Made by a program: the position numbers and the translations under genes
Assembly (NCBI GenBank): GCA_028819075.1
Contig: JAPPMM010000014.1
Span: 1 to 64,000, forward strand
Length of the DNA: 64,000 nucleotides
Source: Gammaproteobacteria bacterium
GTDB taxonomy: Bacteria > Gemmatimonadota > Gemmatimonadetes > Longimicrobiales > Gaopeijiaceae
Direction of reading: 5' to 3'
Part shown: positions 34,950-53,126 of the stretch, one piece after another
Position numbering within the stretch: position 1 is the first letter of the stretch
How the letters are laid out: every line of letters begins with the position of its first letter
Notes under the pieces: model-generated
The model's database searches: none
Told to the model about the DNA's origin: nothing
The model's input: the letters and a program-made list of their open reading frames with translations, nothing else

Positions 34950-35584
34950 GGGCGCTCTCTCCGGACGACGGCGACGGTCCGCGCGGCCTCGTCGCGGATC
35001 CGGTCGAAGGCGCCCGCGTCGATCGACGCGGGCGGCGCGAGCCAGGAACCGCCGCACGCCAGCACCCGATCGAGCTTGAGGTAACCGGGGAGGTGCTCGC
35101 GCTTCACTCCTCCGGTGGGGATGAACCTCAGGCCGGGGAAAGGCGCCGAGATCGCCTTGAGGAAGGACGCTCCTCCGAGGGGCCCGGCGGGAAAGAACTT
35201 CAGCACGTCGAGCCCCGCCTCGAGGGCGCTCTGAATCTCGGTGGGCGTGCATACGCCGGGATAGACGGGGAGTTCGTGCGCCCGGCAATAGTCGACCACG
35301 CGGGCATCGAAGCCCGGGGAGACCACGAATCGCGCCCCCGCCTCCCTCGCGGCCTCCGCCTGCCCGGGTGTGAGGACGGTGCCGGCGCCCGGCAGGACGT
35401 CGGGGACCTCCGCCGCGATGCGGCGCAGCGCCTCCGCGGCCCCGGAAGTCCTGAACGTGATCTCGGCGCACGGAAGGCCGCCCTCGGCCAGTGCGCGCGC
35501 CAGCGGCACCGCGCGGCGCGGGTCGCGGATGACGACCACGGGGACCACGCCCAGCCGGCCGATCCGTTCGTTCAGGGACGTCAT
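34946..35584 (-). CDS. eda: KDPG/KHG aldolase
   Basis: 212 residues. Class I aldolase splitting KDPG to pyruvate and glyceraldehyde-3-phosphate. The catalytic Glu segment CAEITFRT and the Schiff-base Lys in LKFFPAG are present, as is [12 protein letters not shown]. The start overlaps the uxuA stop by 4 nt and its stop overlaps the kinase start by 4 nt, so the last three steps of the uronate pathway are tightly coupled. Confidence 0.95.
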
Positions 35585-36639
35585 CGCGATCCACGCTTCT
35601 CGCGGACCGCCATCCCTTCCACCCCTTCCCACAGCCCCTGCAGGTACATCGCCCCGAGCGCTCGATCGTACAGGCCGTAGCCCGGCTGGCCCGTCTCGCC
35701 CCAGATCATGCGTCCGTGGTCGGGGCGCATCGGCCCGGCAAACTCCACCTCGCGCAGCGCGCGGACCACCTCCAGCAGGTCGACATCCCCCAGCCGCGAC
35801 GGGTGGGGACTCTCGTGGAAGCGCCGATCGCCGGTCACGCGGACGTTGCGGCAATGCGCGAAGTGGATCCTCGAACCCAGGCGGCGGATGATCGCGGGCA
35901 GGTCGTTGTCGGGACGGGCGCCCAGGGAGCCGGTGCAGAAGGTGATCCCGTTGGCGGGCCGATCCACCAGCCCCAGCAGCCGCTCGAGCGCCGGACCATC
36001 TGTGACGACGCGCGGCAGCCCGAAGACGGACCACGGCGGATCGTCCGGATGCATCGCCATCAGCACACCGGACTCCTCCGCCACGGGTACCACGGCCTCC
36101 AGGAAGTACCCCAGGTTCTCCCAGAGCTGCTCCTCTTCCATCGCGCGGAAGGCGGCGAGCAGCTCGGAAAGCCGTTCGGGCTGGACGGGCGACCACGCCG
36201 GAAGCGCGGCCGGGCCCCGCGCGGGATCAAGCGCGGCCAGCTCCTCCGGGTCGTACGCGAGCGTGGCCGACCCGTCCGCCAGCCGCTTGTCGATGCTCGT
36301 GCGGGTCCAGTCGAGCACGGGCATGAAGTTGTAGCAGATGACCGGCACGCCGATCTCGCCCACGGCGCGCACGCTCTCGCAGTAACGCTCGATGAACCGA
36401 TCCCTCGAGGGCCGCCCCAGCTTGATGTCGTCGTGGACGGGAATGCTCTCCACCACCGCGAAGCGGAGCCCCGCGTCGTCGATCGCCTCGCCCAGCCGGC
36501 TCAGCTCGTCCCGCGGCCACGCTTCCCCCGCGGGGATGTCGTGCAGCGCGCTGACCACCCCCTCGACGCCGGGGATCTGGCGAATCCGCGACAGGCTCAC
36601 CGAATCCCCGGGACCGAACCAGCGGAAGCTCATCAGCAT
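35581..36639 (-). CDS. uxuA: Mannonate dehydratase
   Basis: 352 residues. Removes water from D-mannonate to give 2-keto-3-deoxygluconate. The opening [14 protein letters not shown] with [15 protein letters not shown] and the metal-site motifs ([32 protein letters not shown]) match UxuA throughout; the length fits the shorter form of the family. It begins 7 bp after the SDR gene. Confidence 0.95.
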
Positions 36640-36646
36640 GGGCGCC

Positions 36647-37462
36647 TCAGATGCCGCTGAAGGCGCTGAAGCCCCCGTCGACGGGGATCACGGCGCCGGT
36701 GACGAACGACGCGGCGTCGCTCGCAAGCCAGCGGACTACCCCCGCCACCTCCGCGGGCCTCCCCAGCCGCCCCATCGGGGTGTGTTCGATGATGCGCCTG
36801 GCCCGCGCGGTGTAGCTCCCGTCAGGCTTCACCAGCACGGCCCGGTTCTGCTCCGCCAGGAAGAAGCCGGGCGCGACCGCATTGACTCGGAGACCGTCCC
36901 CGTGCCGGCGGGACAGTTCGACCGCCATCCAGCGCGTGAAGTTCTCGATGGCGGCCTTGGCGGCCGAGTAGGCCATGACGCCCGTGAGAACCCGAAGCGC
37001 CGCCATCGACGAGATGTTCACGATGCAGCCGGCGCCCCGAGCGGCCATCGCCTCACCGAAGACCATGGACGGTACGACCGAGCCGTGGAGGTTCAGGCGG
37101 AGGGCCTCGTCGAAGGCATCTGCGGGAACCGCGAAAATGCTCCCCTCGTCGCTGCGCGCACGCTTCATGTTCCCCCCCGCGGCGTTGACCAGCACATCCA
37201 CCGCTCCCCACCGGTCCAGGAGCTCGCGACGTGCCCGGCGAAGCGCCTCTTCGTCCAGCACGTCCGCCTCCAGCGCGATGGCTCCACCGATCCCGGCAGC
37301 CTTCGCTTCAGCCTGCTCGCGGCGGCGGCCCAGCACCGCAACCCGCGACCCCGCACGCCCCAGCTCCGCGGCGATCGCTCCGCCCAGCACGCCGTAGCCG
37401 CCGCACACCACCGCCACCCTGCCGGTGAGGTCGAACGGATCGGTCTCCCCGCCCGAACTCAC
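36647..37462 (-). CDS. SDR oxidoreductase, probable mannonate/fructuronate reductase
   Basis: 271 residues. The cofactor motif GGYGVLGG is at 21-28 and YSAAK supplies the catalytic Tyr and Lys. This group of SDRs, with GGxGVLGGAIA, is often found beside uxuA where the classical UxuB is missing, so D-fructuronate/D-mannonate interconversion is the best guess from context; it is an inference. The GTG start at 37462 overlaps the amidohydrolase stop by 4 nt. Confidence 0.85.
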   Translation of the reverse strand: MSSGGETDPFDLTGRVAVVCGGYGVLGGAIAAELGRAGSRVAVLGRRREQAEAKAAGIGGAIALEADVLDEEALRRARRELLDRWGAVDVLVNAAGGNMKRARSDEGSIFAVPADAFDEALRLNLHGSVVPSMVFGEAMAARGAGCIVNISSMAALRVLTGVMAYSAAKAAIENFTRWMAVELSRRHGDGLRVNAVAPGFFLAEQNRAVLVKPDGSYTARARRIIEHTPMGRLGRPAEVAGVVRWLASDAASFVTGAVIPVDGGFSAFSGI

Positions 37463-38769
37463 CCGCCCCGCTCTGCGAGCTGACGCTCGATGGAATCGCG
37501 CATGTAGGGAAGATGCCGGAGCGCGTTCTCGAAGTAGATCTTGCGCAGCACTTCGTCCGGAAGGCCGATCCCGTAGATGTTGTAGCGCCCGTGGCCCGGC
37601 GAGCCGCCGGGGGTGCGGACCTGGGCCGGATGAAAGAAGTGCTCGTCGAACGTCTCCAGGAAGCGCCAGTGCGGGGTCCAGAAGTCGTCGATCGTGCGGC
37701 GCCGGTTGCCGTCGGTGCCGAAGAGGATGCGGTCCTGGTACTTGAGGAAGAACTCTCTCCACAGGCGGGGCGCGCGGCCCAGGTCCTGAATCGCGGCGGA
37801 TGTCTCCAGGTCGGCGTTCGGATAGGTGTCCAGCAGCGTTCCGAGCCTCCCCGGGTCGTAGTAGAGCATCGCCATATGCCCGAGCACGAAGCGCGTGCGC
37901 GGATGCTTGGCGAGCATCCTCTCGCGCGCGACCTCGATCACCTCGCGGGGCGGGCCCGACTCGTAGAGATTGCCGCTCTTGTCCCCCGGATGCCGCCACA
38001 GGCCGGCCTCGTAGCGCTCGTTGAGAGGACCGATGGGATAGAAGCGTCCGACCGAGTCGCTGGTGTGAATCATGATCGGCTTGTCGTGCTTCGCGGCCAT
38101 CGCCCACACGGCATCGAGGCGCGGATCGTCGGCCTGGATGAAGCTGCCGTCCGGGTTGCGCGCGCCCTGGCCCAGTGCCTTGGACACCTTCAGGCCGCCG
38201 GCGCCGGCCAGAAAGCCGCGTTCCAGCTCCCCGGCCATCCACTCTGACCAGCCGGGCTCGTTGATGCCGTCGAGGTTCAGGGTGACGAAGTTCACGACCC
38301 GGTCCCGGTACGCCTGCCCCGCCGCCAGCGTGGAGTCGAGGTGGGCCCCGGTGCCGCCGTTCAGGTTGATGATCGCGCCCATGCCGATGGAGTCCATGAG
38401 GGCGACCATGCTCTCGTACGCCTCGGAGGTGGTGAGTTCGCCGGCGTGCACGTGGAAGTCGATGGCCGGGAATCCTGCCCGCGTGATGTTGGTTCTCGGG
38501 AGCCGGAGCAGGATATAGGGCATGGGCGGCTGCTCGTATCCGACCGGTTCCCAGCCCTCCGGAGGCAGGGTCGCCTCCAGAGGCGGCATCGGCGGGATCC
38601 AGACGGCGCCTTCGGCCATCCCCTCGGGCGCGCGCGGGATCACCGGAATGGGGGTTCCGTCGCGGGCCCTTATGGTGTCGTTGCCCTGCCGGGCTGCGGC
38701 CGGCTGGCCCGGGAGAACGGCGAACAGCGCCGCGGCGAACAGGGCATGAGTCACGAACGAACAACGCAT
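37459..38769 (-). CDS. Secreted amidohydrolase (PF04909 type)
   Basis: 436 residues with a signal peptide (1-26, ending PAAARQ). TIM-barrel amidohydrolase-2 features: first metal motif IDFHVHAGE at about residues 102-110, MIHTSDS and VLGHMAM as later ligands, and LFGTDGN near the C-terminus for the catalytic Asp. This superfamily branch contains decarboxylases and sugar lactonases (fuconolactonase, rhamnonolactonase). Next to a PQQ dehydrogenase and mannonate dehydratase, a periplasmic lactonase role is attractive but unproven. Confidence 0.82.
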   Translation of the reverse strand: MRCSFVTHALFAAALFAVLPGQPAAARQGNDTIRARDGTPIPVIPRAPEGMAEGAVWIPPMPPLEATLPPEGWEPVGYEQPPMPYILLRLPRTNITRAGFPAIDFHVHAGELTTSEAYESMVALMDSIGMGAIINLNGGTGAHLDSTLAAGQAYRDRVVNFVTLNLDGINEPGWSEWMAGELERGFLAGAGGLKVSKALGQGARNPDGSFIQADDPRLDAVWAMAAKHDKPIMIHTSDSVGRFYPIGPLNERYEAGLWRHPGDKSGNLYESGPPREVIEVARERMLAKHPRTRFVLGHMAMLYYDPGRLGTLLDTYPNADLETSAAIQDLGRAPRLWREFFLKYQDRILFGTDGNRRRTIDDFWTPHWRFLETFDEHFFHPAQVRTPGGSPGHGRYNIYGIGLPDEVLRKIYFENALRHLPYMRDSIERQLAERGG

Positions 38770-38794: not shown

Positions 38795-40987
38795 TCAACC
38801 TCTCGGGAGGGCGCGTGTCATGTAGTCGACGATCGCCGCGCGCTGCTCCGGCGTGGTCGCGTTGATGAAGCCGCGGGCGTACTTCTCGCCCACGAACAGC
38901 CGCCACTCTTCGGCGCTGCGGCGGTTGTTGATGATCCGGTCGGCCGAGTGGCACCGCGTGCAGGCTTCGCGCGCCAGATCGCTCCCGGGCAGATCCGGCA
39001 GCTCCGCTCCACCCATGCCGCCCAGGAACCCGTCGGGAGGCGGCTCGACCGGGGGAGGCGGCGGGGGCGCCTGCGGCTCCATCGACGGCGCGGGCAGGTC
39101 CGCGTCCAGCGCGAAGGTGTAGACCCGGCCCGGCGCGTAGCTGCCGCCCCGGCCGGTCACCACCGAGACGTATTGCCGGCCGTCCAGCATGTACGTCACG
39201 GGATTGGCGAAGCCGGGCGCGAGCGGGTATTCCCACAGCATCTCGCCGTCGTCCGCGCGATAGGCGTTGAAGGACCCGCCCCCGTTCCCGTGGAACACCA
39301 GGTTGCCGGCGGTGGTCAGCGTACCGCCGGAGACGCCCCGCTGCTCGAAGCGGTGCCGCCAGCGCTCCTCCCGGGCGACCGGATCCCACGCGGCCAGAAA
39401 GGCACCGGAGCCCCCCATCCCGACCACCATGGGGTCGATCTCGCGATCCCGGGGCCCGGCCTGGGGCAGGACGGCGGGAAGCTCGGCGGCCACGTCGACG
39501 CCCCTGATCGGCCCTGCGGCCGGCCGGCGGCGTCCCATCCCGAAGCCCGGCTGCCCGGGCTCGATCGCGAAGTCCGGATCCACGGAGTACCAGCGGGAGG
39601 TCTCCTGCCCGGGCAGGTAGACGAGGCCGGTGGCCGGATTCCACGAGGTGGCATGCCAGTTGTGGGCGCCATCGGAGCCGGGAGAGATGAGCGCGCCCTC
39701 GATGCCGTAACGCGCGAAGTCGGTCTCGATCGGGCGCCCGGTCTCCGGGTCGTACCCCATCGCCCAGGTCACCCGCGCGAACGGCTCCGCGGAGATGAAC
39801 TCGCCGGTCACGCGATCGATCACGTAGAAGAAGCCGTTCTTGGGCGCCTGCATGATGACCTGCCGCTCGCGCCCGCCGATGACCAGATCCGCGAGGATGA
39901 GGGGCTGGGTGGCGGCGTAGTCCCAGTCGTCGCCGGGCGTGGTCTGGTAGTGCCAGACGTACTCGCCCGTGCGCGGGCGCACCGCCATGATCGAGGTGAG
40001 ATAGAGGTTGTCGCCGCCCGCCGGGCTCCGGATATCGCGCGCCCAGGGCCCTCCGTTGCCCACCCCGAAGTAGAGCAGGTCCAGCTCCGGATCCCAGGCC
40101 ATCCCGTCCCACACCGTCCCGCCGCCCCCGTACCGCCACCAGGCGCCGGTCCAGGTCTCGGCCGCCCGCTCCAGGGCCTCGCTCTCGAAGGGCTCGGTGG
40201 GATCGCCCGGCACCGTGTAGAAGCGCCAGATCAGCTCGCCGGTCTGCGCGTCATAGGCCGACACGAAGCCGCGCACGCCGAACTCGGCGCCGCTGATTCC
40301 CGTGATCACCATGCCGTCGACGATGCGCGGGGCGCCGGTGATGCTGTAGTCGTCGAGCGGGCTCCGCACCTGCACCCGCCACACCTCCTCCCCCGTTCCC
40401 GCGTCCAGCGCGGCCAGGCTCCCGTTCAGGAGCCCCACGTAGACCTTGCCGTCGTAGAGGGCCACGCCCCGGTTGACCGGGCCGCAGCACAGGCTCGGCC
40501 CCCGCCGGTGCCGGATGCCGCGCGCGTCGGTGACGTACTGGGTCTGCGGGATCCCCGGGTCCCAGCGCCACTTCTCCTCGCCGGTGCGTGCGTCGACGGC
40601 GAAGACGACGCTCCAGGTGAGCGTGCCGTACATGGTGCCGCCCGCGACGATCGGCGTCCCCTCCAGTTGGCCCGGGTACGAGCCGGTGTCGTAGCTCCAG
40701 GCCAGGCCGAGCCGGTCCACGTTGCCGGCGTCGACCTGGTCGAGGGGGCTGTGGTGGGTGCCGTCCTGGTCGCGGCCGTAGTTGAGCCACTCCCCGGCGG
40801 GCGGGTTGAGCAGGATCTCCTGGTGCGGGTAGCCTCCCGACTCCTGCTCTCCGGCGATAAACGCGCCGGCACCGGCCACCACGGCCAGGAGAAGCCACAT
40901 CCTTCGGTTGCGAATCAAGCCCGGGACCTCGCGCGGTTGGGTGCGTGTCTCATGCCGAAATAGTATGCCCGCGGCCGCGTCACGCAC
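38795..40987 (-). CDS. PQQ-dependent dehydrogenase with C-terminal cytochrome c tail
   Basis: 730 residues. A hydrophobic anchor or signal (about 30-45) is followed by the eight-bladed propeller with adjacent cysteines (SLCCGPVNRG), the GGDNLYLTSI segment and GDDWDYAATQP, then a Pro-rich linker and a short domain with one CxxCH (ACTRCH) for covalent haem c. Electrons would go from substrate to PQQ to haem. The substrate, a sugar or alcohol, is unknown. The GTG at 40987 overlaps the upstream stop by 8 nt; TTG at 40918 or ATG at 40900 are possible starts closer to the anchor. Confidence 0.88.
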   Translation of the reverse strand: MRDAAAGILFRHETRTQPREVPGLIRNRRMWLLLAVVAGAGAFIAGEQESGGYPHQEILLNPPAGEWLNYGRDQDGTHHSPLDQVDAGNVDRLGLAWSYDTGSYPGQLEGTPIVAGGTMYGTLTWSVVFAVDARTGEEKWRWDPGIPQTQYVTDARGIRHRRGPSLCCGPVNRGVALYDGKVYVGLLNGSLAALDAGTGEEVWRVQVRSPLDDYSITGAPRIVDGMVITGISGAEFGVRGFVSAYDAQTGELIWRFYTVPGDPTEPFESEALERAAETWTGAWWRYGGGGTVWDGMAWDPELDLLYFGVGNGGPWARDIRSPAGGDNLYLTSIMAVRPRTGEYVWHYQTTPGDDWDYAATQPLILADLVIGGRERQVIMQAPKNGFFYVIDRVTGEFISAEPFARVTWAMGYDPETGRPIETDFARYGIEGALISPGSDGAHNWHATSWNPATGLVYLPGQETSRWYSVDPDFAIEPGQPGFGMGRRRPAAGPIRGVDVAAELPAVLPQAGPRDREIDPMVVGMGGSGAFLAAWDPVAREERWRHRFEQRGVSGGTLTTAGNLVFHGNGGGSFNAYRADDGEMLWEYPLAPGFANPVTYMLDGRQYVSVVTGRGGSYAPGRVYTFALDADLPAPSMEPQAPPPPPPVEPPPDGFLGGMGGAELPDLPGSDLAREACTRCHSADRIINNRRSAEEWRLFVGEKYARGFINATTPEQRAAIVDYMTRALPRG

Positions 40988-43643
40988 ACGGCAGGCCGTC
41001 CATCCGCCACCCCGACGACTGCAGCCGGTCGATCAGGTAGGGGAGCCCGAAGGCGTGGGTCCAGCCGAAAACCCGGACTCCGCTTGAGAACGCCCAGTTG
41101 GGCATGCGCCCGCCGGCGAAGGGATCGCTCTCCCGGCCGGGCAGGCTGCTCACCGCCTCCATCTGCGTGACGAGTTCGCGCTGGGTCGTGTAGCTGTCGA
41201 ACGGCCGCGCCATCTCATCGATTCGCAGGTACGCCGCCCGCCGGCACGCTTCGGTAAGGAACTCCGGGCCGCCGGTCAGGTCGTACCCGACCACCAGCGG
41301 GTGGATGCTCGCCAGATACGACTCCATGTCGTGGTCGAGGGGAGGGGTAGCGAGCAGGCTGCGGGCGTGCTCGATCTGACCGAGTTCCACCTCCCGGTCG
41401 TCGAACAACTGGAGGTACTTGCCCAGCCCGTGGGTGAGGTAGTGCTGGGAGTAGCCGAAGCGGTCGATGACCATGCGGCCGCCCTGCGTCCTCTGCAGCT
41501 CCAGAACCCGGTTCAACCGGTCCTCGAGTTCCTCGCGATGGATGTCCTCCCGGGTCACGTCGTAGAGTTCGGCCAGGTTCCACACCGACAGATAGAGCCT
41601 GCGCCCGGTGAGCCCGTGCTCCCCGAAGACCCGCTTGCGGTAGTAGTCCCCCGTCAGCCGGGCCACCTCGAGTCCCCGGTGATACCCGCTCAGGTAGTAG
41701 CTTGCCAGCCAGCCCGCGATCCAGACGTGGGCCGAGTACAGCGCGACCGCCTGCTGGTTGGTGTGGCGGGTGCCCATCCCCACGTACGGGCTTCCCTCCG
41801 GCTCTTCGAGCGATGTCCAGTAGTCGAGCGCGGCATTGGTGTCGCCCCGGTAGACCGGGCCCGCGGGCCAGTGCAGGTTGTCCACGTCCATGGTGTGGCG
41901 GCTCATGGCCTCGGCCTGGAGGTAGTCGTCCCGGCTGCCCGTCCGCATGAAGTTGAACCACCACTGGAAGTCCTGCGCCGGCTCGTTGTTGCCCCACTGC
42001 ACCCAGCCGCCCCCGCGGTAATAGGTCTTCAGGTCGCCGTAGTCGAACATCCCGTACCAGGGCGCCCAGTCGCGGTTGAAGTGCATGTAGCGGAACTTGT
42101 ACTGAAGACCCCGTTCCAGCGCCGGAATCCCGTTGTCGGCAGTCGCGAAGGTGCCGTAGACCCCCGAATCCCGGTACCACGCAGGCGGCGCGTGGGCGAC
42201 GGGCGGATCGAGGACCGCGAGGGCGGACGCCCTCACGGCCGCCAGATCGGCGTCGCCGTCGTGGAAGTCGAGCACCAGCTCGGTCGTCTTGGTGATGCCC
42301 CGCGCGAAATTGCCGACCATACCCCCGTCGGCCTGGGGGCTCGCCCGCTGGAAGCCTTTCGGCGGATGGTCCGGAGGCCAGGCATAGGCATGCATCCGGC
42401 GCGCCTCCAGATCCACGGCGAGGCGATTGGGGTATTCCTCCAGCATCCCGCGCATGCCGATGCTGATGCCCCTCTCTCCGTCGGAGAGGTCGATCCACCC
42501 CTCGGCGCGTTCGGCCTCGGCGATTACGCGGTCCGACGCCACGATGGCCGAGAATCCCCCGATCCGTTCATCCGGGCCGGACTCGGGGATGGGTGGGACG
42601 CCGTCCGCGTCCGGGCCGGTCTGGAGCACCGAGAAGGTGGAAGCGCCCTCGGTGTTCTCCTCCAAGAAGATCGGTTCGCCGCTCTCCCACCAACGGCCCG
42701 CGCGGAGCGCGGTGCGGAACACCGGGTCCGCGCCCAGACGGTACGCGAGTCCGATCCCGGCCGAGGCGATCATGTCGTCGGGCCGGGTGATGCCGGCGTC
42801 CATCGAGCGTTCGAACTCGTCGACGATCAGCTCCCCCTGGGTGGCCACGTCGCGATGCTGCCGGCCATCCAGCGGGGCGCCCTGGTCCGGGTTTCCCGTG
42901 TAGGTGATGGTGTGGAGAACCTTCAGGTGCGCCCTTCCCGCGTACGCGTGGATGTAGGTGACGAAGGGGGAGGGAGGGTGTTCGGGCCGCTGGTAGCGGT
43001 ACTCTCCCTCGATCCGCAGGATGGCGTGCATGGGCCCCGAGCCCCTCTCGACGAACGTCTGATGGATCACGGCCGACGAGGCATCCACGCCATCGGCGTC
43101 CACGAGGTCCAGAAACGACCCGCGCGCGCCGATCCCCGCGGCGATCACGTGCCCGGGCCCGAAGCCGTCGCCCGCCGGGTTGAACTCGACCCGGTCGATG
43201 AACCCGCTTCCGCCCTTCTGCACCCGCAGGCGCAGCGGCCCGGTATCGATCTCGGCGAACCCGTTCTGCCGCTGGTTGTTCACAAACCGGATCGGAGACT
43301 CGACCTCCACGGTGCGCCGCACCTCCGGCCCGTGCTCTACCGTGTACCGTCCGGAGCCATCGGTGAAGAAATCGACCCAGATCCACTTGAGGCTCCCGTC
43401 CGCCAGGCCCCAGGTGGTCACCGGGGTGATCTGGGAGGGGATCTCTTCGCCGGCGCCGTTGCGTACCCGCACGTTCTCCGTGGAGACCAGCTCCCCCTGC
43501 GGAAACGGAATACCGAACGTGACGGGCGCCCCCGGACGCTCCCCCTCGACCGTGATCGGGATCGGTGCCGCGCGCGGGGAGCACGCGAGGAGCAATGCGC
43601 CCGCGGTCAACGCGGCGACGAGGAGGAGTTTCTGCGCGTTCAT
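40980..43643 (-). CDS. PcRGLX/YetA-like exo-rhamnogalacturonan lyase (PL26-like)
   Basis: 887-residue lipoprotein (lipobox GALLLACS). The RIFT-type N-terminal domain (PITVEGERPGAPVTFGIPFPQGEL), a middle beta domain and a long C-terminal helical toroid with many Trp/Tyr/His residues match the family of fungal PcRGLX and Bacillus YetA. Known members cleave rhamnogalacturonan from its ends by beta-elimination, releasing an unsaturated uronic acid. This assignment is by recognised pattern; the exact glycan is not certain. It lies 4 bp after the NagB-like gene. Confidence 0.72.
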   Translation of the reverse strand: MNAQKLLLVAALTAGALLLACSPRAAPIPITVEGERPGAPVTFGIPFPQGELVSTENVRVRNGAGEEIPSQITPVTTWGLADGSLKWIWVDFFTDGSGRYTVEHGPEVRRTVEVESPIRFVNNQRQNGFAEIDTGPLRLRVQKGGSGFIDRVEFNPAGDGFGPGHVIAAGIGARGSFLDLVDADGVDASSAVIHQTFVERGSGPMHAILRIEGEYRYQRPEHPPSPFVTYIHAYAGRAHLKVLHTITYTGNPDQGAPLDGRQHRDVATQGELIVDEFERSMDAGITRPDDMIASAGIGLAYRLGADPVFRTALRAGRWWESGEPIFLEENTEGASTFSVLQTGPDADGVPPIPESGPDERIGGFSAIVASDRVIAEAERAEGWIDLSDGERGISIGMRGMLEEYPNRLAVDLEARRMHAYAWPPDHPPKGFQRASPQADGGMVGNFARGITKTTELVLDFHDGDADLAAVRASALAVLDPPVAHAPPAWYRDSGVYGTFATADNGIPALERGLQYKFRYMHFNRDWAPWYGMFDYGDLKTYYRGGGWVQWGNNEPAQDFQWWFNFMRTGSRDDYLQAEAMSRHTMDVDNLHWPAGPVYRGDTNAALDYWTSLEEPEGSPYVGMGTRHTNQQAVALYSAHVWIAGWLASYYLSGYHRGLEVARLTGDYYRKRVFGEHGLTGRRLYLSVWNLAELYDVTREDIHREELEDRLNRVLELQRTQGGRMVIDRFGYSQHYLTHGLGKYLQLFDDREVELGQIEHARSLLATPPLDHDMESYLASIHPLVVGYDLTGGPEFLTEACRRAAYLRIDEMARPFDSYTTQRELVTQMEAVSSLPGRESDPFAGGRMPNWAFSSGVRVFGWTHAFGLPYLIDRLQSSGWRMDGLPCA

Positions 43644-43647
43644 GGCT

Positions 43648-44484
43648 TCACACGCGGGCCGCCGAGGCGGGGTCCAGGAGAAGTGTGGCGTTGTGGTGTC
43701 GGCGCAGAATCGACGCCGGACACGCGGTTGCGATCGGGCCGTTGAGCGCGTCGTGCACGGCGTCCGCCTTGCGCTCTCCCGGCACCACGCAGCTGATGAC
43801 CGCGCTGCTCATGATGGCCGGAACCGTCAGGGTGAGCGCGCGCCTTGGGGTCTCGTCGAACGAGGAGAACCAGCCGTCGTGCATCTGCTGCAGGCGGCAG
43901 GCATCGTCGAGTTCGACCTCCTTCACCAGGAGCGGATCGTCGAAATCGGCCACGGGGGGATCGTTGAAGGCGATGTGCCCGTTCTCGCCGATGCCGATGC
44001 AGGCCACGTCCAGCGGGTGCGCCTGGAGGAGCGACTCGTATCGCTCGATCTCTCCCTGCAGATCATCCGCATCACCGCGCATCAGGTGCACGCAACCCGG
44101 CCGCGCCGCGTCCAGTATGTGCTCGCGCAGGAACCTGCGGAAGCTCGCGGGATGCTCCTCCGGGAGTTCCGTGTACTCGTCGAGGTGGAAGACGGTGACC
44201 CTCGCCCAGTCGATGGCCTTCCGCCCCAGGGCTCCCAGGAAGGACAACTGAGACACCGCAGCGGCAAACACCAGATTGGCTTCCCCTCTGCTCGCGATCG
44301 CGGAGGCCAGCCCCCTCTCGACGCGCGCGGCGGCCGCCTCCCCCAGCTCCCCGGGCGTCCCGTACACCTCCACGCGGAGCGCGCCCCTGCGGAACGACCG
44401 GATGGGTTCCACCTCCCGGCTGCGAGCGCGTCCCGCCCGAGGATCCTCCCTCGACGCACGTCCCTGGAGCGACGTTGCCTTCAT
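43648..44484 (-). CDS. nagB: NagB-like glucosamine-6-phosphate deaminase homolog
   Basis: 278 residues. Active-site motifs of NagB are kept: HLDEYTELP at 100-108 and GIGENGHIAFNDP at 164-176. The phosphate-binding loop, normally TGSTP, reads FAAAVSQLSF at 73-82, as in a subgroup whose true substrate is uncertain, so it may act on something other than glucosamine-6-phosphate. About 30 extra basic residues precede the fold. The ATG at 44484 overlaps the transporter stop by 4 nt. The symbol marks the family only. Confidence 0.8.
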   Translation of the reverse strand: MKATSLQGRASREDPRAGRARSREVEPIRSFRRGALRVEVYGTPGELGEAAAARVERGLASAIASRGEANLVFAAAVSQLSFLGALGRKAIDWARVTVFHLDEYTELPEEHPASFRRFLREHILDAARPGCVHLMRGDADDLQGEIERYESLLQAHPLDVACIGIGENGHIAFNDPPVADFDDPLLVKEVELDDACRLQQMHDGWFSSFDETPRRALTLTVPAIMSSAVISCVVPGERKADAVHDALNGPIATACPASILRRHHNATLLLDPASAARV

Positions 44485-45779
44485 CCCAGGAGTCCCGTGA
44501 CCGCGAACCAGGTCGTGACCAGCGAGAACGCGATCACCGCGATCAGCCCCGCGTTCCATCCCGGCGAAGCCACATGCTCGTTCCCCATCACCTCCCTGCG
44601 GTTCAGCAAGTAGAACGCGGGGATGGCCACGGCGGGCAGGATGGCCGCCTGCAGCGCCATGGCGATCACCATGAGCACCGGCGGCGTCTGCGCCAGGAAC
44701 ACCGAACCGAAGGAGAACAGGAGCCCCAACCCGATCAGGAGCCTCGACGACCGCGAGCGCAGATCCCGTTTCCACCCGGCGTAGTCGGCGACCAGCCAAG
44801 GCGCGATCAGCACCAGGGGAAAGACCGTGGACAGCCCGGCCCCCGAGATGCCGACGATCAGCAGGAAGGCCGCGACGTCGCCCCCGATCGGCTCCAGCAG
44901 CCCGATCATCTCCAGCGTCGACTCCATGGTCATGCCGTGCACGAACAGGGTGCCGGCCGCCACCGCCATGACCATCGCGCTCAGGAAGACCATCACCGAA
45001 GCCGACACCAGCGCGTCCCGCTTCTCGCGGCCGAGATCGTCCACGGTCCACCCCTTCTCGGCCACCACCGTGCTCCGCACGATGAAGACCGCCGCCGAAC
45101 AGGTCGTGCCCGCCATGGCGGCCACCAGGCGGCTGGCGTCCGGCGTGTCCGGGATCGACGGGACCATGCCCGCGACCACCGCGGAGTACGTCGGCGACAC
45201 CATGAAGAAGACGGCGACGAAGCAGAACACCATCAGGATGACGAAGCCGGTCAGGACCTTCTCGAAGAGCCGGTAGTGCCCGAACCAGAGCATGAGGAAG
45301 ATGGCGCTGGCGACCGCCAGCACGATCCAGCCGGTCGGGACCACGAGCGCATCCCCCGGCGAGGCGAGCCGGATCCCCTCCTGGAGCAGCTCCGCAACGA
45401 TCCCCATCACCCCGGTCAGCGCGACCAGCTCGCCCAGCACCAGCGCAGCCAGCACGTACAGCGCCAGGACCTTCCCGACCCTGGGGATCCCGGTCTTGAA
45501 GCTCTGCAGCGCCGTCCGCCCGGTAACCAGCGTCAGGCGCCCGAACCCCACCATCAGGACGTACGTGAAGATCCCCGACAGCACGAGCGCCCAGAGCAGG
45601 TTCATGCCGTACCGGGCGCCCGCCATCCCCATGGTGGTGATGCTGCCCGTGCCGATGTTGTACCCGATCAGGAAAAGCCCCGGCCCCACTGCACTCAGTG
45701 CGACCAGGGTCTTCCCGGAAAGCGACCGCCCTCTCGTGGCGGACTGCTTCACCGGCTGCGTACCGCGGGGCTGATTCAT
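44481..45779 (-). CDS. NRAMP-fold transporter lacking metal-binding motifs
   Basis: 432 residues, about 11 hydrophobic helices with NRAMP family pattern (GPGLFLIGY...GAGxxYGxNLLW, RLTLVTGRTA). The TM1 metal motif DPGN reads NIGT at 41-44, and the TM6 motif MPH reads CSA at 227-229, so the divalent-metal ligands of true NRAMPs are missing. In a carbohydrate operon, an organic solute (sugar acid or amino sugar) or a different ion is more likely than Mn/Fe. Overlaps the neighbours on both sides by 4 nt. Confidence 0.8.
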   Translation of the reverse strand: MNQPRGTQPVKQSATRGRSLSGKTLVALSAVGPGLFLIGYNIGTGSITTMGMAGARYGMNLLWALVLSGIFTYVLMVGFGRLTLVTGRTALQSFKTGIPRVGKVLALYVLAALVLGELVALTGVMGIVAELLQEGIRLASPGDALVVPTGWIVLAVASAIFLMLWFGHYRLFEKVLTGFVILMVFCFVAVFFMVSPTYSAVVAGMVPSIPDTPDASRLVAAMAGTTCSAAVFIVRSTVVAEKGWTVDDLGREKRDALVSASVMVFLSAMVMAVAAGTLFVHGMTMESTLEMIGLLEPIGGDVAAFLLIVGISGAGLSTVFPLVLIAPWLVADYAGWKRDLRSRSSRLLIGLGLLFSFGSVFLAQTPPVLMVIAMALQAAILPAVAIPAFYLLNRREVMGNEHVASPGWNAGLIAVIAFSLVTTWFAVTGLLG

Positions 45780-47653
45780 GGCCTTTGCGCGGCTGGGCCG
45801 TCCCAGGGGAAGTTCAGCGTCGGCTGGTGCTCGTAGCGACGCAGCCCGATCGTCAGCGTGGCCCCGGCGCCCGGCTCCAGGCGCACGTCGAAGTGGGGGG
45901 CATCGATGGGAATCACCCGTTCCCCAAGGGTCACGCGGGTCGCGTGGTGTTCGCCGTATGCCCCCGCCTGCACCGTGACCGTGCGCGCCTCGAGGGGTCC
46001 GACGTTGACGAGGGTGAGCGTGACGCCGTCGGGCGCGATGCGCTCCACCAGCGCGGCCACATCCTCCGGGAGCCCGGCCCGCCCCCGCCCGGGGTCGAAA
46101 TGACGGACCTGCGCGTGGAGCGGGAGGGGCCCGTGCGTGGATCCCCCGGGGTCGTTCGCGCCCAGGGTCAGGTTGATCAGGGCGGTGGTGGAGACCGGGT
46201 TCGCCCCCAAGCTGCCGCTTGCGCGCAGCCGGCGGGCGGCCTGCCGCACGTCGTCAACGGCGTTCCGCAGGGCGGCCACCGGATAGTCCGGGTCCTTCCC
46301 CTCCAGGAAGTCGATCCAGCGGAGATCGGGGTGATGGCGCATGCGCGCCGCCTCCGCCGCCGGAAGGCGCTCCCGGTCCTCCGGCCTCTGCGACCACATG
46401 TAGATGTCGAGCAGCACGTTCACGTGGTTGCCGAGGGCGCCGGAGGGCGGATCCCCCACGGGCGCGTACCCGTACCATCCACCGTCGCCGTGGTAGCGCG
46501 GCAGCAGCACGCGCCCGTCGCCGCCGACGCGGCTCGCTGCGAAGAGGTTGTCGAACTGGCGCCGCAGCACACCCGTGTAGCTCTGGTCGCCCGTCAGCAG
46601 CAGGGCGGCCCCGAAGGCCTCGGGAGACCCCCGAAGCGTGTAGTTGCGCCCGCCGCCGTCCGGGGAGTTCCATCCGAACACGCCGCTGTACCACTTCCCG
46701 TCCCACGCGCCTCCGATGCTGCCGTCCAGACCGATGTTCGACGGAATGTTGCCGCCGGCCGCGTCGATCCGCTCCCGCCACGCGTCCACGTACTCGAGCA
46801 CCCAGGCCCGGTACTTCGCCTCCCCCGTGACCATGTAGGCGTGGAGGGCGAGCATCGTCGCGTTGAGGTTGAGGGGATGGTCTCCCACGATGTTGCCGGA
46901 CTCGATGAACCGCGTTCGCCGGGGCGAGGCGGGGTCCACTTCGGGACCCACCGGACCGTCCCAGTCGTCGACCGTGGCCGGCGTCATCTTCGGGCCCAGG
47001 CTCCCGTTGAACAGGCTGCGGATGATCCTGAGGCCGGGATCGTAGTTGGCCGCAGCGGGATCCTCGTTCATGTAGAAGCCGGCAAAACGCCGGAGGCGTT
47101 CCTCGTAGACGGGGTCGTTCGGCCGGCTCAGGCCGTGGAAGTAGAACGGACCCAGCCCCTCGCCGATGTGCTCCCAGTCATACGAGGTCATGAACTCGCG
47201 CTGGTAGATGCCGTCCCGCGCCATCTCGAGTTCCGGAACCCGCGCCTGCCCGACCTGGCGCAGGTGCCCTTCCCACGCCTTTTCCCAGGTCTCGATGATG
47301 GATTCGGGACCGCCGAGGGCATGCGCCAGAGGCCAGTTGCGGATGTTTTCCATGAGGTCGTCGGGACCGTCGCCGACCCCCCACCTCGGGGTGACCGGCA
47401 GAAACCCGCGCTCGTCCAGGAACGCGTCCGCGTAGAGGGCGACACCCTGTGCGTTGATCTCGAGCAGGGCGCGCTGGGCGAGCGCCCACGCGGGGGCAGG
47501 CAGCGGAGTGTCGATCACGACCGTCCCGGCGGGCCGAGAAACGGACCCTTCTCCGCGGCTCCTGGCGGAGACCTCGTCCCGGAGCGACCCCAGGACGCTC
47601 CCCGACCCGGCGGCGAGGCCCGCCAGGATGAGCGCGACCGTACGAGAGGTCAT
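45776..47653 (-). CDS. Secreted protein of unknown function, probable alpha/alpha-toroid
   Basis: 625 residues. A Sec signal (MTSRTVALILAGLAAGSGSVLG) is followed by about 450 helical residues rich in Trp, Tyr and His (for example DWEHIGEGLGPFYFHG; RYHGDGGWYGYAPVGDPP) in a toroid-like pattern, then a beta-rich tail of about 110 residues. This arrangement resembles polysaccharide lyases and glycosidases, but I recognise no specific family and identify no catalytic pair. Located between SusD and the NRAMP-like gene, so a role in glycan breakdown is likely. Confidence 0.65.
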   Translation of the reverse strand: MTSRTVALILAGLAAGSGSVLGSLRDEVSARSRGEGSVSRPAGTVVIDTPLPAPAWALAQRALLEINAQGVALYADAFLDERGFLPVTPRWGVGDGPDDLMENIRNWPLAHALGGPESIIETWEKAWEGHLRQVGQARVPELEMARDGIYQREFMTSYDWEHIGEGLGPFYFHGLSRPNDPVYEERLRRFAGFYMNEDPAAANYDPGLRIIRSLFNGSLGPKMTPATVDDWDGPVGPEVDPASPRRTRFIESGNIVGDHPLNLNATMLALHAYMVTGEAKYRAWVLEYVDAWRERIDAAGGNIPSNIGLDGSIGGAWDGKWYSGVFGWNSPDGGGRNYTLRGSPEAFGAALLLTGDQSYTGVLRRQFDNLFAASRVGGDGRVLLPRYHGDGGWYGYAPVGDPPSGALGNHVNVLLDIYMWSQRPEDRERLPAAEAARMRHHPDLRWIDFLEGKDPDYPVAALRNAVDDVRQAARRLRASGSLGANPVSTTALINLTLGANDPGGSTHGPLPLHAQVRHFDPGRGRAGLPEDVAALVERIAPDGVTLTLVNVGPLEARTVTVQAGAYGEHHATRVTLGERVIPIDAPHFDVRLEPGAGATLTIGLRRYEHQPTLNFPWDGPAAQRP

Positions 47654-47724: not shown

Positions 47725-49152
47725 TCAGCCCGGGTTCTGCACCATCTCTCCCGGCGACACGTCGATCTCGCGCTGCGGGATCGGATACACCAGCCGGATG
47801 TCCCCGGCCGACAGACCGGCCGCCCTCAGGGGCTCGAAGCTCGACATCACCTGCTGTGCGACCCCGAAACGGAGGAGGTCGGCCCAGCGCTTGCCCTCGG
47901 TGATGAACTCGAGCTGCCGCTCGAACAGCAGCTTCTCCTGGAACGTCCCGGGGGTGCCGGCATCGATGGGCGACGCTCCGGCACGCGCGCGCACCTGGTT
48001 GATCAGCCCGTACGCCTCCCCGCCCTCGCCGAGCGCCTCGGCCAGCATCAGCAGCACGTCCGCGTAGCGGAAGACGGGGAAGTTGTTGTCGGCGTCGGCC
48101 TGCGCGAAGGGGATGCTCTCCCACTTCTTGACGTACACGTTGCCTTCGTCCGAGACGGCGAAGGTCCCGCCCATGCCGCGCGCGTCGTTCTCCGCCATCA
48201 TGTACTGCATCGAGTGGATCTCGTCGATGCCCGGGGAGAGGACCTGGGGCGCGTTGCCCGCACCGACCCCGCCGGATCCGCCGAACGGCGTGTAGTAGTC
48301 GGTGAACTGGCTTCCGGTCCCGGTCCCGCCGGCCTTGTACTGGAGCTCGAAAACCGACTCGGCGTTGTTCTCGTTGGCCACGCCCCAGAGGTCGGCGTAG
48401 TTCGGAAGCAGGGTGTACTGTCCGGAGCTCACCACCCGGCGCAGCGCCTCCGCCGCGGCACCCGACTGGCCGTTGGTCAGATAGACCAGACCCAGCAGGG
48501 CATTGGCGGCGCCGCTGGTGGCGCGCCCCACGTCCGCCCCGCTGTAGGAGGCCGGCAGCAGCCCCTGGGCGGCCTCGAGGTCCTCGGCGATCTGCGTGTA
48601 GACCACGTCCGCGCCCACCTGGTTGACCTCGACGTTGGGCGAAGTCACCGCTTCGAGCTGCAGTGGCACGTTCCCCCAGAGGACGCCGAGGTGGTAGTAG
48701 AACAGCGAACGGATGAAGAGCGCTTCACCGCGGATGCGGCTGGCGACGTTCTGGTCCTCGAGATTGTCCACCCGATCGAGGATGAGGTTGGTGCGCGCGA
48801 TGCCCTGGTACGCCGTCGTCCAGGGAATGGACAACTCCTCCTGCGTCGACAGCTCGGAGAAGTGGGCGATGCGGTGGAACACCTCCGCGAGACCTGTCGC
48901 GCCGCCTCCGTTCATCGTGTTGTCGGAGCGCATCTCGTGCAGGAGGACGTAGGACCGGTTGTAGGCGCCGTTGCTCGCAAGGGTGGCGTAGGCGCCGTTG
49001 ATGGCGACGTCGAAGTCTGTGGGCGTCTGGTAGAAGGCCTCCACGTTCCGCTCGGAGATCGGGCTCAGCAGCGTGAAGTCCTCGCTGCAGGCGGAGAGGA
49101 GGAAAACCACCGGGAGCGTCAGTATGGCTCGTGTTGTCGTTTTCATTTTCAT
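47725..49152 (-). CDS. SusD/RagB-family glycan-binding lipoprotein
   Basis: 475 residues with lipobox (LPVVFLLSAC, Cys22). The TPR-rich SusD core (NGAYATLASNGAYNRSYVLLHEM; RIRGEALFIRSLFYYHLGVLWG) and the C-terminal FRYADVLLMLAEALGE and ERQLEFITEGKRWADLLRFG are typical. It caps the SusC barrel at the outer surface and captures ligand. Six nt after susC. Confidence 0.95.
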   Translation of the reverse strand: MKMKTTTRAILTLPVVFLLSACSEDFTLLSPISERNVEAFYQTPTDFDVAINGAYATLASNGAYNRSYVLLHEMRSDNTMNGGGATGLAEVFHRIAHFSELSTQEELSIPWTTAYQGIARTNLILDRVDNLEDQNVASRIRGEALFIRSLFYYHLGVLWGNVPLQLEAVTSPNVEVNQVGADVVYTQIAEDLEAAQGLLPASYSGADVGRATSGAANALLGLVYLTNGQSGAAAEALRRVVSSGQYTLLPNYADLWGVANENNAESVFELQYKAGGTGTGSQFTDYYTPFGGSGGVGAGNAPQVLSPGIDEIHSMQYMMAENDARGMGGTFAVSDEGNVYVKKWESIPFAQADADNNFPVFRYADVLLMLAEALGEGGEAYGLINQVRARAGASPIDAGTPGTFQEKLLFERQLEFITEGKRWADLLRFGVAQQVMSSFEPLRAAGLSAGDIRLVYPIPQREIDVSPGEMVQNPG

Positions 49153-49158
49153 CCCCCC

Positions 49159-52100
49159 TTAGAATCCGATCTCGGCGCCGAACTGGAACGCCCGCATCAG
49201 CGGATACGCTCCGTAGTCCTGCCCCGGCGTGAGCCCGGTGGACTGGACGCTCGCTTCGGGATTCCAGCCCCAGTAGTCCGTCCACATGAAGACGTTGTTC
49301 ACGGCGCCGAAGACCCGCACGCTGCCCGGCGCCTGGCCGAAGATCCCGCCAACCAGATCCGGCGGCACGTTCCAGGAGAGCGAGATGCTCTTGAAGCTCG
49401 TGTAGGAGCCGTCCTCCATCTGGTAGTTGGACGGCCTGGTGTTCCCGCCGTGGTCCTGCCGGTCGGGCTTGGGGTCCCAGCCGTTGCCCGGCTCCTCCGG
49501 CGACCTCCAGTAGTTGCCGACCAGGTTTCCGTACGCGTTGAAGTTGCCTTGAGCCGTCAGGTGCCGGCGGGTGAGGTTCAGCACCTCGCGCCCGACCACG
49601 CCCTGGAAGAAGACGCTGAGCTCGATATCCCCGAAGGCGAAGCGGTTGAACAGGCCCCACGTCATGTCCGGGTTGTAGCTGCCCAGCTCGGTGCGGTCGT
49701 CGGCGGTGATGCGCCCGTCGCCGTTGACGTCCTTCCACTTGATGTCTCCGGGCGTGACGTTCCGTGAGTCGACGGGGCTGGAGGCGATGTCCGCCTCGCT
49801 CTGGTAGATGCCGTCGTGGACGTAGCCGTAGTAGGCGCCGATCTCGCCCCCGACCTGGGTGATGTGCCGGACGCCCGCCACGCCGGCGGCGAGGATCGGG
49901 TCGCCTTCGGGGCCGAGCTTTACGACCTCGTTGGTGTTCATGCCCAGGCTGAGGTCCGTGGACCACTGGAAGGCGCCGACCAGGTTCCGCGAAGTGATCT
50001 GCGCCTCGAAGCCCGTGTTGCGGACCTCGCCGACGTTGGTCAGGACGGTCGCGAAGCCCGTGGAGGACGGCACGTTCACGTTCAGCAGCAGGTCTTCGGT
50101 GTTCGAGACGTAGTAGTCGAAGGCACCGTAGATACGGTCGGCCAGGATCCCGAAGTCCACGCCCATGTTGAGCTGCCGCGTGGTCTCCCACGTCAGTTCG
50201 CGGTTGCCCAGCGTCCGCGGAGTGGCTCCGGCGACCACGGCGTCGCCCAGCACGTAGGGCTGGCGCCCGACCAGGCCGATGGAGCCGTAGTTCGGGATCT
50301 GGAAGTTCCCGGTGACGCCGTAGCTGACGCGCGGCTTGAGCTGGCTGAAGAAGGTGCTCCCCCGCATGAAGGGCTCCTCGGTCATCTGCCACCCGAGCGA
50401 CAGCGAGGGGAAGTAGCCCGTCTGATTCCCCCACCCGAAGCGCGATGAGCGGTCGGACCGGAAGGTCGCGGTTGCGAGATAGCGGTTCAGGAGGGTGTAG
50501 TTGACCCGTCCCAGCGCGGATACCAGCGACCACTCCGACTGTTGCTGGTCCCCGCCCGTGATCTCGCCGCCGTTGATGGTCCTGACCTGATCGTCCGGGA
50601 AATTCCGGGCTATCACGTCCTGAGTGTCGTCGAACTGATGCTCGGCCGTGTACCCGGCCAGCACGTTGAAGCTGTGCGGGCCTGACGACCTGTTCCAGGT
50701 CAGGGTGTTCTCGAGCAGCCAGTTGCGGCTCTGACCCGAGAGGGCCTGCGCGTACGGGTCGGGGACGTTCCGCCCGCGGTACTGCAGGCGCGTTCCCTGG
50801 TAGAAGTGCCGGTTTCTGGTGTCGTAGTCGTAGCCGAAGAGCGCGCGGTAGCGGAGGTCGTCCCGCAGGTCCAGGTCGGCCGACACGCTGCCGAACACGC
50901 GTCCCGTCTGCAGATCGTCGTCGATGTAGTCGCGGGCGGCCAGGGCGTGATTGGTGCTGGTCATGCCGTTGCCCAGGGCGTTGATGCTGTTCTCGCCCCG
51001 CTGCAGGTAGTTGCCCTCGGCGTCGTAGATGCGCGCCACGGGCGAGGACACCATCGCCGAGTAGATGAGACCCGGCGGCCTGCCGAAGTAGGGCGCGTGC
51101 GCCGCCTTGCGGTCGTGGTCGGCGTAGGCCGAGTTGACGTCCACGTTCAACTGGAGCCGGTCGCTCGGATCCAGGGTCAGGTTGGCGCGCAGCGCGAGCC
51201 TCCGGAAGTTGGAGCCCTTGATGACGCCGGACTGGTCCATGTAGGAGCCCGATACGAAGTACGCGAGATTCTCCGAGCCTCCCCGGACGGAGGCGTCGTA
51301 GTTCTGCAGCACCGCCTCCTCGAGGACGGCGCCGATCCAGTCGCTGTCGGTCCCGTCCCAGTTCACGTAGGCCTCCGGGATCAACTGCGATCCGCTCGCC
51401 CCGTTCTCGGCGCGGCCGGCGTTGTTGTCCGGATTGTAGAGCGGGTTGTAGGCGGGACTCGCGGGATTCAGGGGATCCCGGCCCTGCAGGTAGGAGTTGT
51501 TGCGGGCATCCTTCACGTACTGGATGTTCTCCGCTGCGTTCATCAGGCGCGGCCGATTGAAGGCGGTCTGCACACCGCCGTAGGCCCGGAAGCTCACCTG
51601 CGGCGGCGCGCCGCGCTCCCCGCGCTTGGTCGTGATCAGGATGACGCCGTTGGAGCCGCGCGAGCCGTAGATGGCCGCGGCTGCTGCGTCCTTCAGGACC
51701 TCGATGGTTTCGATATCGTTGGCGTTGAGGTTGGCCAGCGGGTTGGCCCGCGTCACGCCGAAGCTGGCCCTCTGCAGGCTCACCTCGCCTTCGATGTTCA
51801 GGTTCATCGAGTACGGCACGCCGTCGATGACATAGAGGGGCTCTGTGCCGGCGGAGATCGAGCCTCTGCCGCGGACCAGAACCTGCGGAGCCGTGCCCGG
51901 TTCTCCGGACGACTCGGCGACGTTTACGCCGGCCAGCCGCCCCTGAAGCGCGGTCTGCAGGTTGGGCGTCACCGAAGCCTGGGCGATTTCGATGCCCGGG
52001 ACCGAGGTCACCGCGCCCGTCACTTCCCTGCGCAACTGGGTTCCGTACCCGACGACCACCAGCTCGTCCAGGCCGAGCACGGTTCCGGTGAGGGCCACGT

Positions 52101-52392
52101 CCTGCACCACCGCCTCACCCTCCGTGACCGTGATCTCGCGGCGCTCGGTCTCGAAGCCGAGGTACTGGAAGAGGACGACCTGCGGCCCGGAGGGGACGTT
52201 GATCAGGAGGTACCGGCCCTCTTCGTTGGTCAGGCCCCCGATGCCCGTGCCCTCGATGGACACCTGGACGGTGGCGAGCGGTTCTCCGGTCTCGGCGGAT
52301 GTGACGGCGCCGGTCACCTGGGCCTGCAGCGGCAGCGCCGTCGCGAGCACGCCGACGAGCAGTCCAAACGAGTTTCGTAAGTTTGTTCGCAT
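49159..52392 (-). CDS. SusC/RagA-family TonB-linked outer-membrane transporter
   Basis: 1077 residues. Signal peptide to about residue 24, carboxypeptidase-regulatory-like domain (about 25-110), plug with VVVGYGTQLRREVTGAVTSV and LKDAAAAAIYGSRGSNGVILITTK, then a 22-strand barrel. Takes up an oligosaccharide with energy from TonB. The start has GGAGG shortly upstream. First gene of the apparent 12-gene operon. Confidence 0.95.
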   Translation of the reverse strand: MRTNLRNSFGLLVGVLATALPLQAQVTGAVTSAETGEPLATVQVSIEGTGIGGLTNEEGRYLLINVPSGPQVVLFQYLGFETERREITVTEGEAVVQDVALTGTVLGLDELVVVGYGTQLRREVTGAVTSVPGIEIAQASVTPNLQTALQGRLAGVNVAESSGEPGTAPQVLVRGRGSISAGTEPLYVIDGVPYSMNLNIEGEVSLQRASFGVTRANPLANLNANDIETIEVLKDAAAAAIYGSRGSNGVILITTKRGERGAPPQVSFRAYGGVQTAFNRPRLMNAAENIQYVKDARNNSYLQGRDPLNPASPAYNPLYNPDNNAGRAENGASGSQLIPEAYVNWDGTDSDWIGAVLEEAVLQNYDASVRGGSENLAYFVSGSYMDQSGVIKGSNFRRLALRANLTLDPSDRLQLNVDVNSAYADHDRKAAHAPYFGRPPGLIYSAMVSSPVARIYDAEGNYLQRGENSINALGNGMTSTNHALAARDYIDDDLQTGRVFGSVSADLDLRDDLRYRALFGYDYDTRNRHFYQGTRLQYRGRNVPDPYAQALSGQSRNWLLENTLTWNRSSGPHSFNVLAGYTAEHQFDDTQDVIARNFPDDQVRTINGGEITGGDQQQSEWSLVSALGRVNYTLLNRYLATATFRSDRSSRFGWGNQTGYFPSLSLGWQMTEEPFMRGSTFFSQLKPRVSYGVTGNFQIPNYGSIGLVGRQPYVLGDAVVAGATPRTLGNRELTWETTRQLNMGVDFGILADRIYGAFDYYVSNTEDLLLNVNVPSSTGFATVLTNVGEVRNTGFEAQITSRNLVGAFQWSTDLSLGMNTNEVVKLGPEGDPILAAGVAGVRHITQVGGEIGAYYGYVHDGIYQSEADIASSPVDSRNVTPGDIKWKDVNGDGRITADDRTELGSYNPDMTWGLFNRFAFGDIELSVFFQGVVGREVLNLTRRHLTAQGNFNAYGNLVGNYWRSPEEPGNGWDPKPDRQDHGGNTRPSNYQMEDGSYTSFKSISLSWNVPPDLVGGIFGQAPGSVRVFGAVNNVFMWTDYWGWNPEASVQSTGLTPGQDYGAYPLMRAFQFGAEIGF

Positions 52393-53096: not shown

Positions 53097-53126
53097 CACC
53101 CACCTCTCTTCGCTGGAACCGCGACG

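Follow-up and report, generated by a model that had tools for sequence, protein, structure and literature searches.

NRAMPL, a transporter-like protein encoded in the window (the whole stretch of 64,000 nucleotides of DNA that was analyzed), is best explained as a secondary importer with the LeuT fold, belonging to the NRAMP superfamily and predicted to carry a hexuronate-type organic acid and not a metal ion; based on sequence and gene context, we assign this reading a probability of about 0.58. The preliminary description of this DNA had suggested another kind of substrate, perhaps a sugar acid or an amino sugar. This suggestion is partly supported, being the best-supported reading given the alginate, GH88 and 2-keto-3-deoxygluconate (KDG) contexts of related genes, the link to a NagB-like enzyme, and the precedent of PxpT.

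The NRAMPL reading frame is intact and encodes 432 amino acids on the minus strand (Table 1). Its match to PF01566 covers the profile nearly end to end and scores 185 bits vs. the gathering cut-off of 29.8. The NCBIfam MntH models score far under their cut-offs, and the model “Nramp family divalent metal transporter” gives 68.9, somewhat above its cut-off of 50. By sequence, the closest solved structures are EleNRMT (PDB:7qia, 1e-17), the B. fragilis Nramp, and the MntH structures. The AlphaFold2 model, built with nine sequences of the NRAMPL clade (see below), is of medium confidence (pLDDT 68, pTM 0.72) and was used for the fold, not for the geometry of side chains or the pocket. Foldseek places EleNRMT first for this model, then the YcsG model and DraNramp; the amino acid transporters ApcT and AdiC are among the lower-ranked matches. 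By both Pfam and Foldseek, NRAMPL is a member of the NRAMP superfamily (PF01566, LeuT fold), in line with the fold assignment of the preliminary description, which had proposed structure prediction as a check.

Table 1. Features of the NRAMPL locus and of the NRAMPL metal-site region (positions in the window)
Feature	Positions	Strand	Evidence
SusC-like TonB-dependent transporter	49159..52392	-	sequence read; place conserved in relatives
SusD-like lipoprotein	47725..49152	-	sequence read; place conserved in relatives
625-aa protein without family match, upstream of NRAMPL	45776..47653	-	no Pfam/NCBIfam match; missing in some relatives
NRAMPL, NRAMP-like transporter of the IGTGS clade	44481..45779	-	PF01566, 185 bits; AF2 pTM 0.72; Foldseek; tree
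TM1 G43-T44-G45-S46 (GTGS) replacing DPGN	45642..45653	-	alignment; G43 and S46 in 36/36 clade members
TM6 S228-A229-A230 replacing MPH	45090..45098	-	alignment
TM6 Arg235 at the place of canonical His237	45075..45077	-	Arg in 36/36 clade members; His in MntH and PxpT
NagB-like enzyme	43648..44484	-	PF01182, 85 bits; alignment with E. coli NagB; conserved link
PcRGLX-like polysaccharide lyase candidate	40980..43643	-	PF21346/PF21345/PF19501; PDB 5xqo
PQQ-dependent alcohol/sugar dehydrogenase with C-terminal CxxCH (haem c) motif	38795..40987	-	TIGR03075 above cut-off; motif read
Amidohydrolase (Amidohydro_2), probable signal peptide	37459..38769	-	PF04909
SDR of the D-mannonate oxidoreductase (UxuB-type) subfamily	36647..37462	-	NF006132, 338 bits, cut-off 281
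UxuA mannonate dehydratase	35581..36639	-	TIGR00695, 371 bits, cut-off 199.55
KDPG aldolase (Eda)	34946..35584	-	TIGR01182, 237 bits, cut-off 156
PfkB-family kinase, probably 2-keto-3-deoxygluconate kinase	33912..34949	-	PF00294; KDG kinase models best, under their cut-offs

Residue columns were compared in pairwise alignments and in a multiple alignment of 80 rows, with DraNramp numbering for the canonical positions. D56–N59 of DraNramp (DPGN) align with G43–S46 of NRAMPL, and its MPH motif (230–232) aligns with S228–A230. Hence the loss of both motifs, claimed in the preliminary description, is borne out by the alignment, but the replacing residues were misplaced there: the alignment rules out NIGT and CSA, the actual replacements being GTGS, two residues downstream of NIGT, and SAA, one residue downstream of CSA. 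The replacements of D56 by Gly, N59 by Ser, and A227 by Thr are fixed in 36 out of 36 clade members, and His237, kept in MntH and PxpT, is likewise Arg in all 36; the M230 column of the clade contains Ser, Gly or Ala, and the H232 column, mostly Ala, Val or Met. The proton-network columns D131, E134, R352, and R353 are occupied by Leu, Val, Leu, and Ile, respectively, in NRAMPL, and by hydrophobic or small residues throughout the clade.

Thus, DPGN, MPH, and D131/E134/R352/R353, which characterize canonical NRAMP/MntH (SLC11) proteins, are all absent from NRAMPL: the likeness to this group comprises the fold, PF01566, and the topology, whereas all metal-binding and proton-network residues are replaced. 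In the 80-row alignment, no conserved acidic residue is left in the TM1, TM6, and TM3 site columns of the clade, so that the comparison with canonical NRAMPs and a related Mg2+ carrier (EleNRMT), of the kind suggested earlier as a check, shows the metal ligands replaced and none conserved in these columns. EleNRMT, a Mg2+ carrier and the best match by both sequence and Foldseek, also has neither DPGN and MPH nor the proton network, but it belongs to another branch of the tree. Judging by the alignment, the NRAMPL clade has lost more than this known Mg2+ branch, because EleNRMT retains Asp in the D56 column and Glu in the E134 column, and the clade has neither. Chance degeneration of a single gene is excluded because the same substitutions are fixed throughout a deep clade (36/36 members). 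The preliminary picture of an NRAMP fold kept intact apart from its metal motifs needs correction in two respects: the motif positions were misassigned, and the protein belongs to a separate clade and is not a degenerate NRAMP.

This clade comprises 36 rows of the maximum-likelihood tree (support 100/99), with members from Gemmatimonadota, Bacteroidota, Proteobacteria, and one archaeon. The search for relatives covered the own order (154 genomes), the own phylum (298), the phylum of Fodinibius (395), and the class of Emcibacteraceae (289), as well as a GTDB contig scan and plasmid and E. coli collections; the relatives range from 100% to about 35% identity and share the motif IG(T/V)GS. The sub-clades are formed by the window genus with Fodinibius and Emcibacteraceae; the f11 group; Bacteroidota with hexosaminidase/GH88 loci; Bacteroidota with alginate loci; and E. 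coli. The clade excludes canonical MntH, EleNRMT, and the PxpT group; several of these outside rows are on long branches, and we claim no mutual order for them; for EleNRMT, itself on a long branch, the firm point is its exclusion from the clade. “Nramp-related” or “orphan” proteins without both DPGN and MPH are already known (PMC12873925, PMC10606218), and by sequence comparison NRAMPL falls into one distinct, widespread clade among them.

Many other PF01566 genes of the own order belong to the GPGT type, with FIGPGT in TM1 and VPY in TM6; in Bacteroidota, genes of this type directly precede pxpABC (L114, L115, L121, L122, L123) and constitute the PxpT group. In two of these Bacteroidota genomes (L114 and L115), the pxpT-pxpABC operon for 5-oxoproline lies beside a SusCD locus containing NRAMPL. 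Two matches of about 28% were set aside, one from a haloarchaeal plasmid, which is of the GPGT type and adjoins oxoprolinase-family genes, and one from Pseudoalteromonas, which has no catabolic context. The PF01566 search of the window genome found no canonical DPGN NRAMP; its second match (G000:C40:206607) is a 530-aa NRAMP-like orphan, rejected as a spare MntH since its TM1 reads TGIGTSHL, not DPGN. GenBank titles several metagenome-assembled genomes of the window genus Gammaproteobacteria, their relatives being BD2-11/Gemmatimonadetes.

The NRAMPL gene overlaps both of its neighbors, encoding the 625-aa protein and the NagB-like enzyme, by 4 bp, and is translationally coupled inside a SusCD operon whose products break down hexuronates (UxuB, UxuA, KDG kinase, KDPG aldolase). 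With SusC and SusD (52392–47725) in series with the operon and a lyase candidate, this is a SusCD-type polysaccharide utilization locus. NRAMPL is the only polytopic protein, with many hydrophobic segments, in the region of 33.9–52.4 kb. The gene order is maintained in congeneric loci where it is readable, and in some of them the 625-aa gene is absent and SusD is directly followed by NRAMPL. The two neighbors were correctly described before, one as a glycan protein without a known family and the other as NagB-like. For the 625-aa protein, the only PDB hint, N-acylglucosamine 2-epimerase, is not significant (E 1.3), and the AF2 model has pLDDT 33. Just upstream of the full SusC, positions 52575–53099 encode a 174-aa protein consisting of a SusC plug-like domain alone, which is kept in relatives.

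UxuA is present in eight out of eight checked genomes of the window genus, and UxaC, the uronate isomerase, in none of the eight; all eight checked Bacteroidota genomes that have UxuA also have UxaC. From UxuA being present and UxaC absent it follows that fructuronate must arise without UxaC in this genus, or else mannonate is the entry. NagB chemistry converts a 2-amino-aldose to a ketose and ammonia, and by analogy, the same reaction on 2-amino-2-deoxyglucuronate would yield D-fructuronate, the substrate of UxuB. Hence a narrower, tentative guess, about which we are more doubtful than confident, is that the substrate of NRAMPL here may be a 2-amino-2-deoxyhexuronate, which the NagB-like enzyme would deaminate and isomerize directly to D-fructuronate, replacing UxaC. 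The full amino-uronate route is not universal, because Emcibacteraceae (G156) have neither UxaC nor UxuA.

In the alignment with E. coli NagB, the NagB-like proteins retain the catalytic D72 and H143 in all members and keep Lys208, E148 is replaced by Asp, and D141, by Asn. The phosphate-binding loop TGGTP/TGSTP is shortened and replaced by an AxxSQ-type sequence, and Arg172 is replaced by Gln (Leu in one member). In two loci, a NagA-like gene sits between the NRAMPL and NagB-like genes (L044:9211-10545 and L093:8049-9365); both its products score above the TIGR00221 cut-off and carry an N-terminal twin-arginine (Tat)-type leader, and thus would be predicted to act outside the cytoplasm, on unphosphorylated sugars. 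Non-phosphorylated substrates are indicated because this NagA would be located outside the cytoplasm and NagB has lost its phosphate ligands. For 10 of the 22 clade members in the 395 Bacteroidota genomes, a NagB-like gene lies no farther than 10 kb away (about 5e-4 expected per gene); this count is inflated by relatedness yet spans at least two sub-clades; the window genus, Emcibacteraceae, and locus L144 also link the two genes. At 26 out of 36 places, the NagB-like gene occurs without NRAMPL.

Among the other clade members, those in Bacteroidota loci L102, L106, L107, L108, and L110 are surrounded by genes for PL7, PL6, and heparinase/PL17-type lyases, KDG kinase, KDPG aldolase, and SDRs; in L102 and L106, the KDPG aldolase gene ends no more than a few bases from the NRAMPL start. 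In L104, the neighbors are 2-keto-3-deoxygalactonokinase and an aldolase. Further Bacteroidota members occur with genes for GH20/GH67-like, GH88, GH2, and TIM-barrel isomerase proteins (L094–L101, L103, L105). In these alginate and hexosaminidase loci, NRAMPL need not be the sugar carrier, because an MFS or SSF permease is often co-encoded. The main paralog of the f11 genomes (L138–L143) has no evident catabolic neighbors; in most of these genomes, the clade member is followed by a small conserved gene resembling membrane-protein genes. The E. coli member (L125:8052-9281, NZ_AP018784.2), found in 546 of 5,426 complete genomes (about 10% of chromosomes) between dnaB and qorA and named “Nramp family divalent metal transporter” in databases, is accompanied by genes for a CoA-transferase, an enoyl-CoA hydratase, an FAD oxidoreductase, and a regulator of the LacI family, a context of organic-acid catabolism, not sugar. 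As the f11 and E. coli members lie outside sugar loci, the substrate may vary across the clade. That the whole clade consists of hexuronate and amino-hexuronate importers, with a partner NagB-like enzyme making fructuronate directly from non-phosphorylated 2-amino-hexuronate in an uncharted route of amino-uronic acid breakdown that bypasses uronate isomerase, is a prediction we consider rather doubtful.

The precedent for an organic substrate in this family is good but contested. PxpT is needed for the growth of C. glutamicum on 5-oxoproline, as demonstrated by deletion and complementation (PMC13274462), while B. subtilis YcsG, tied to 5-oxoproline use, has been reported to raise cellular Mn2+ and import Mn2+, and was renamed MntG (PMC10448178). 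PxpT and YcsG share with NRAMPL the Pfam family and fold, the replacement of the metal-binding Asp by Gly, Thr at A227, a place in an operon that catabolizes an organic acid, and the database name of a metal transporter. They differ in forming their own clade, with GPGT in TM1 and VPY in TM6 vs. GTGS and (S/G/A)xx, in keeping the second TM6 His, which is Arg in the NRAMPL clade, and in being linked to pxpABC and not to sugar genes; no pxpABC was found in the window operon.

Under the hexuronate reading, the SusCD proteins and the lyase-like enzymes would release acidic sugars and bring them into the periplasm, NRAMPL would move the monomers across the inner membrane, and UxuB, UxuA, KDG kinase, and Eda would convert them to pyruvate and glyceraldehyde-3-phosphate. 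In amino acid transporters of the same superfamily, as seen in LAT1 and AdiC structures, the GSG segment, which TM1 GTGS of NRAMPL resembles, holds the carboxylate by main-chain amides. The unwound GTGS segment may similarly present backbone amides to the substrate carboxylate, and TM6 residues Thr225/Thr226, Ser228, and perhaps Arg235 may complete the pocket. Since the NRAMP proton network is gone, NRAMPL could be a uniporter or use a different ion. In the narrower version of this reading, the NagB-like enzyme would not require the 6-phosphate any more and would act on 2-amino-2-deoxyhexuronate.

An alternative is that NRAMPL remains a divalent-cation carrier similar to EleNRMT, moving Mg2+, Ca2+ or Mn2+ by means of ligands elsewhere, and supplies the metal-dependent UxuA or handles the cations released from polyuronates. 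Both sequence and fold indeed single out a Mg2+ carrier as the closest solved relative, YcsG/MntG is a reported Mn2+ importer (PMC10448178), and the only other PF01566 match in the window genome is a motif-less orphan. We nevertheless regard this as unlikely, as no conserved acidic residue is left in the TM1, TM6, and TM3 columns, with EleNRMT keeping the equivalents of Asp56 and Glu134, the NRMT branch lies elsewhere in the tree, and the surrounding genes are those of organic-acid catabolism, not metal homeostasis.

Other organic substrates can be considered as well. NRAMPL might import simply an amino sugar (glucosamine or galactosamine) that a NagA-like deacetylase releases in the periplasm and the NagB-like enzyme deaminates, with the uronate genes serving the other half of a glycosaminoglycan-like polymer. 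The NagB-like link itself, the adjoining NagA-like genes with the Tat-type leader in L044 and L093, and the GH20- and GH84-type enzymes of Bacteroidota loci are consistent with that, but alginate loci L102, L106, and L107 have the transporter without any NagB-like gene, and no amino-sugar kinase is seen among the identified operon genes in the window, making this substrate quite improbable. We give a still smaller chance to an aldonate, such as mannonate or glucosaminate, which the operon's PQQ dehydrogenase would produce in the periplasm: UxaC, absent here although UxuA is present, would then be unnecessary, and relative L104 adjoins 2-keto-3-deoxygalactonokinase and an aldolase; however, PQQ dehydrogenase of the window type was not found in loci outside this genus, and the UxuB-type SDR would be needed only for fructuronate.

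Already known were the family, its fold, the fact that some members lack the motifs, and, in the case of PxpT, a clade with an organic substrate. An Nramp homolog had been drawn inside the alginate cluster of the Alteromonas AS1/AS2 alginolytic systems in 2019, labeled “metal-ion transporter” in the legend of Fig. S3 (PMC6431674); this figure legend is the only mention of an NRAMP in a polysaccharide utilization locus found in the literature searched. The Alteromonas protein, known from this figure label, shares the alginate context. The open literature searched yielded no description of the sugar-acid clade, of the GTGS/Arg235 signature or of a link to a NagB-like enzyme that is independent of phosphate, and the sugar-acid clade appears to be undescribed so far.

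If the hexuronate reading is true, this would be, with PxpT, the second clade of a “metal” family carrying organic acids, which bears on substrate change in the NRAMP fold and fits the view that this fold began as an organic solute carrier, as did the rest of the superfamily. It would also set right the misleading label of metal transporter that many genomes carry, about 10% of complete E. coli chromosomes among them. For acidic-glycan breakdown, it would supply a missing inner-membrane step together with a testable amino-uronate route.
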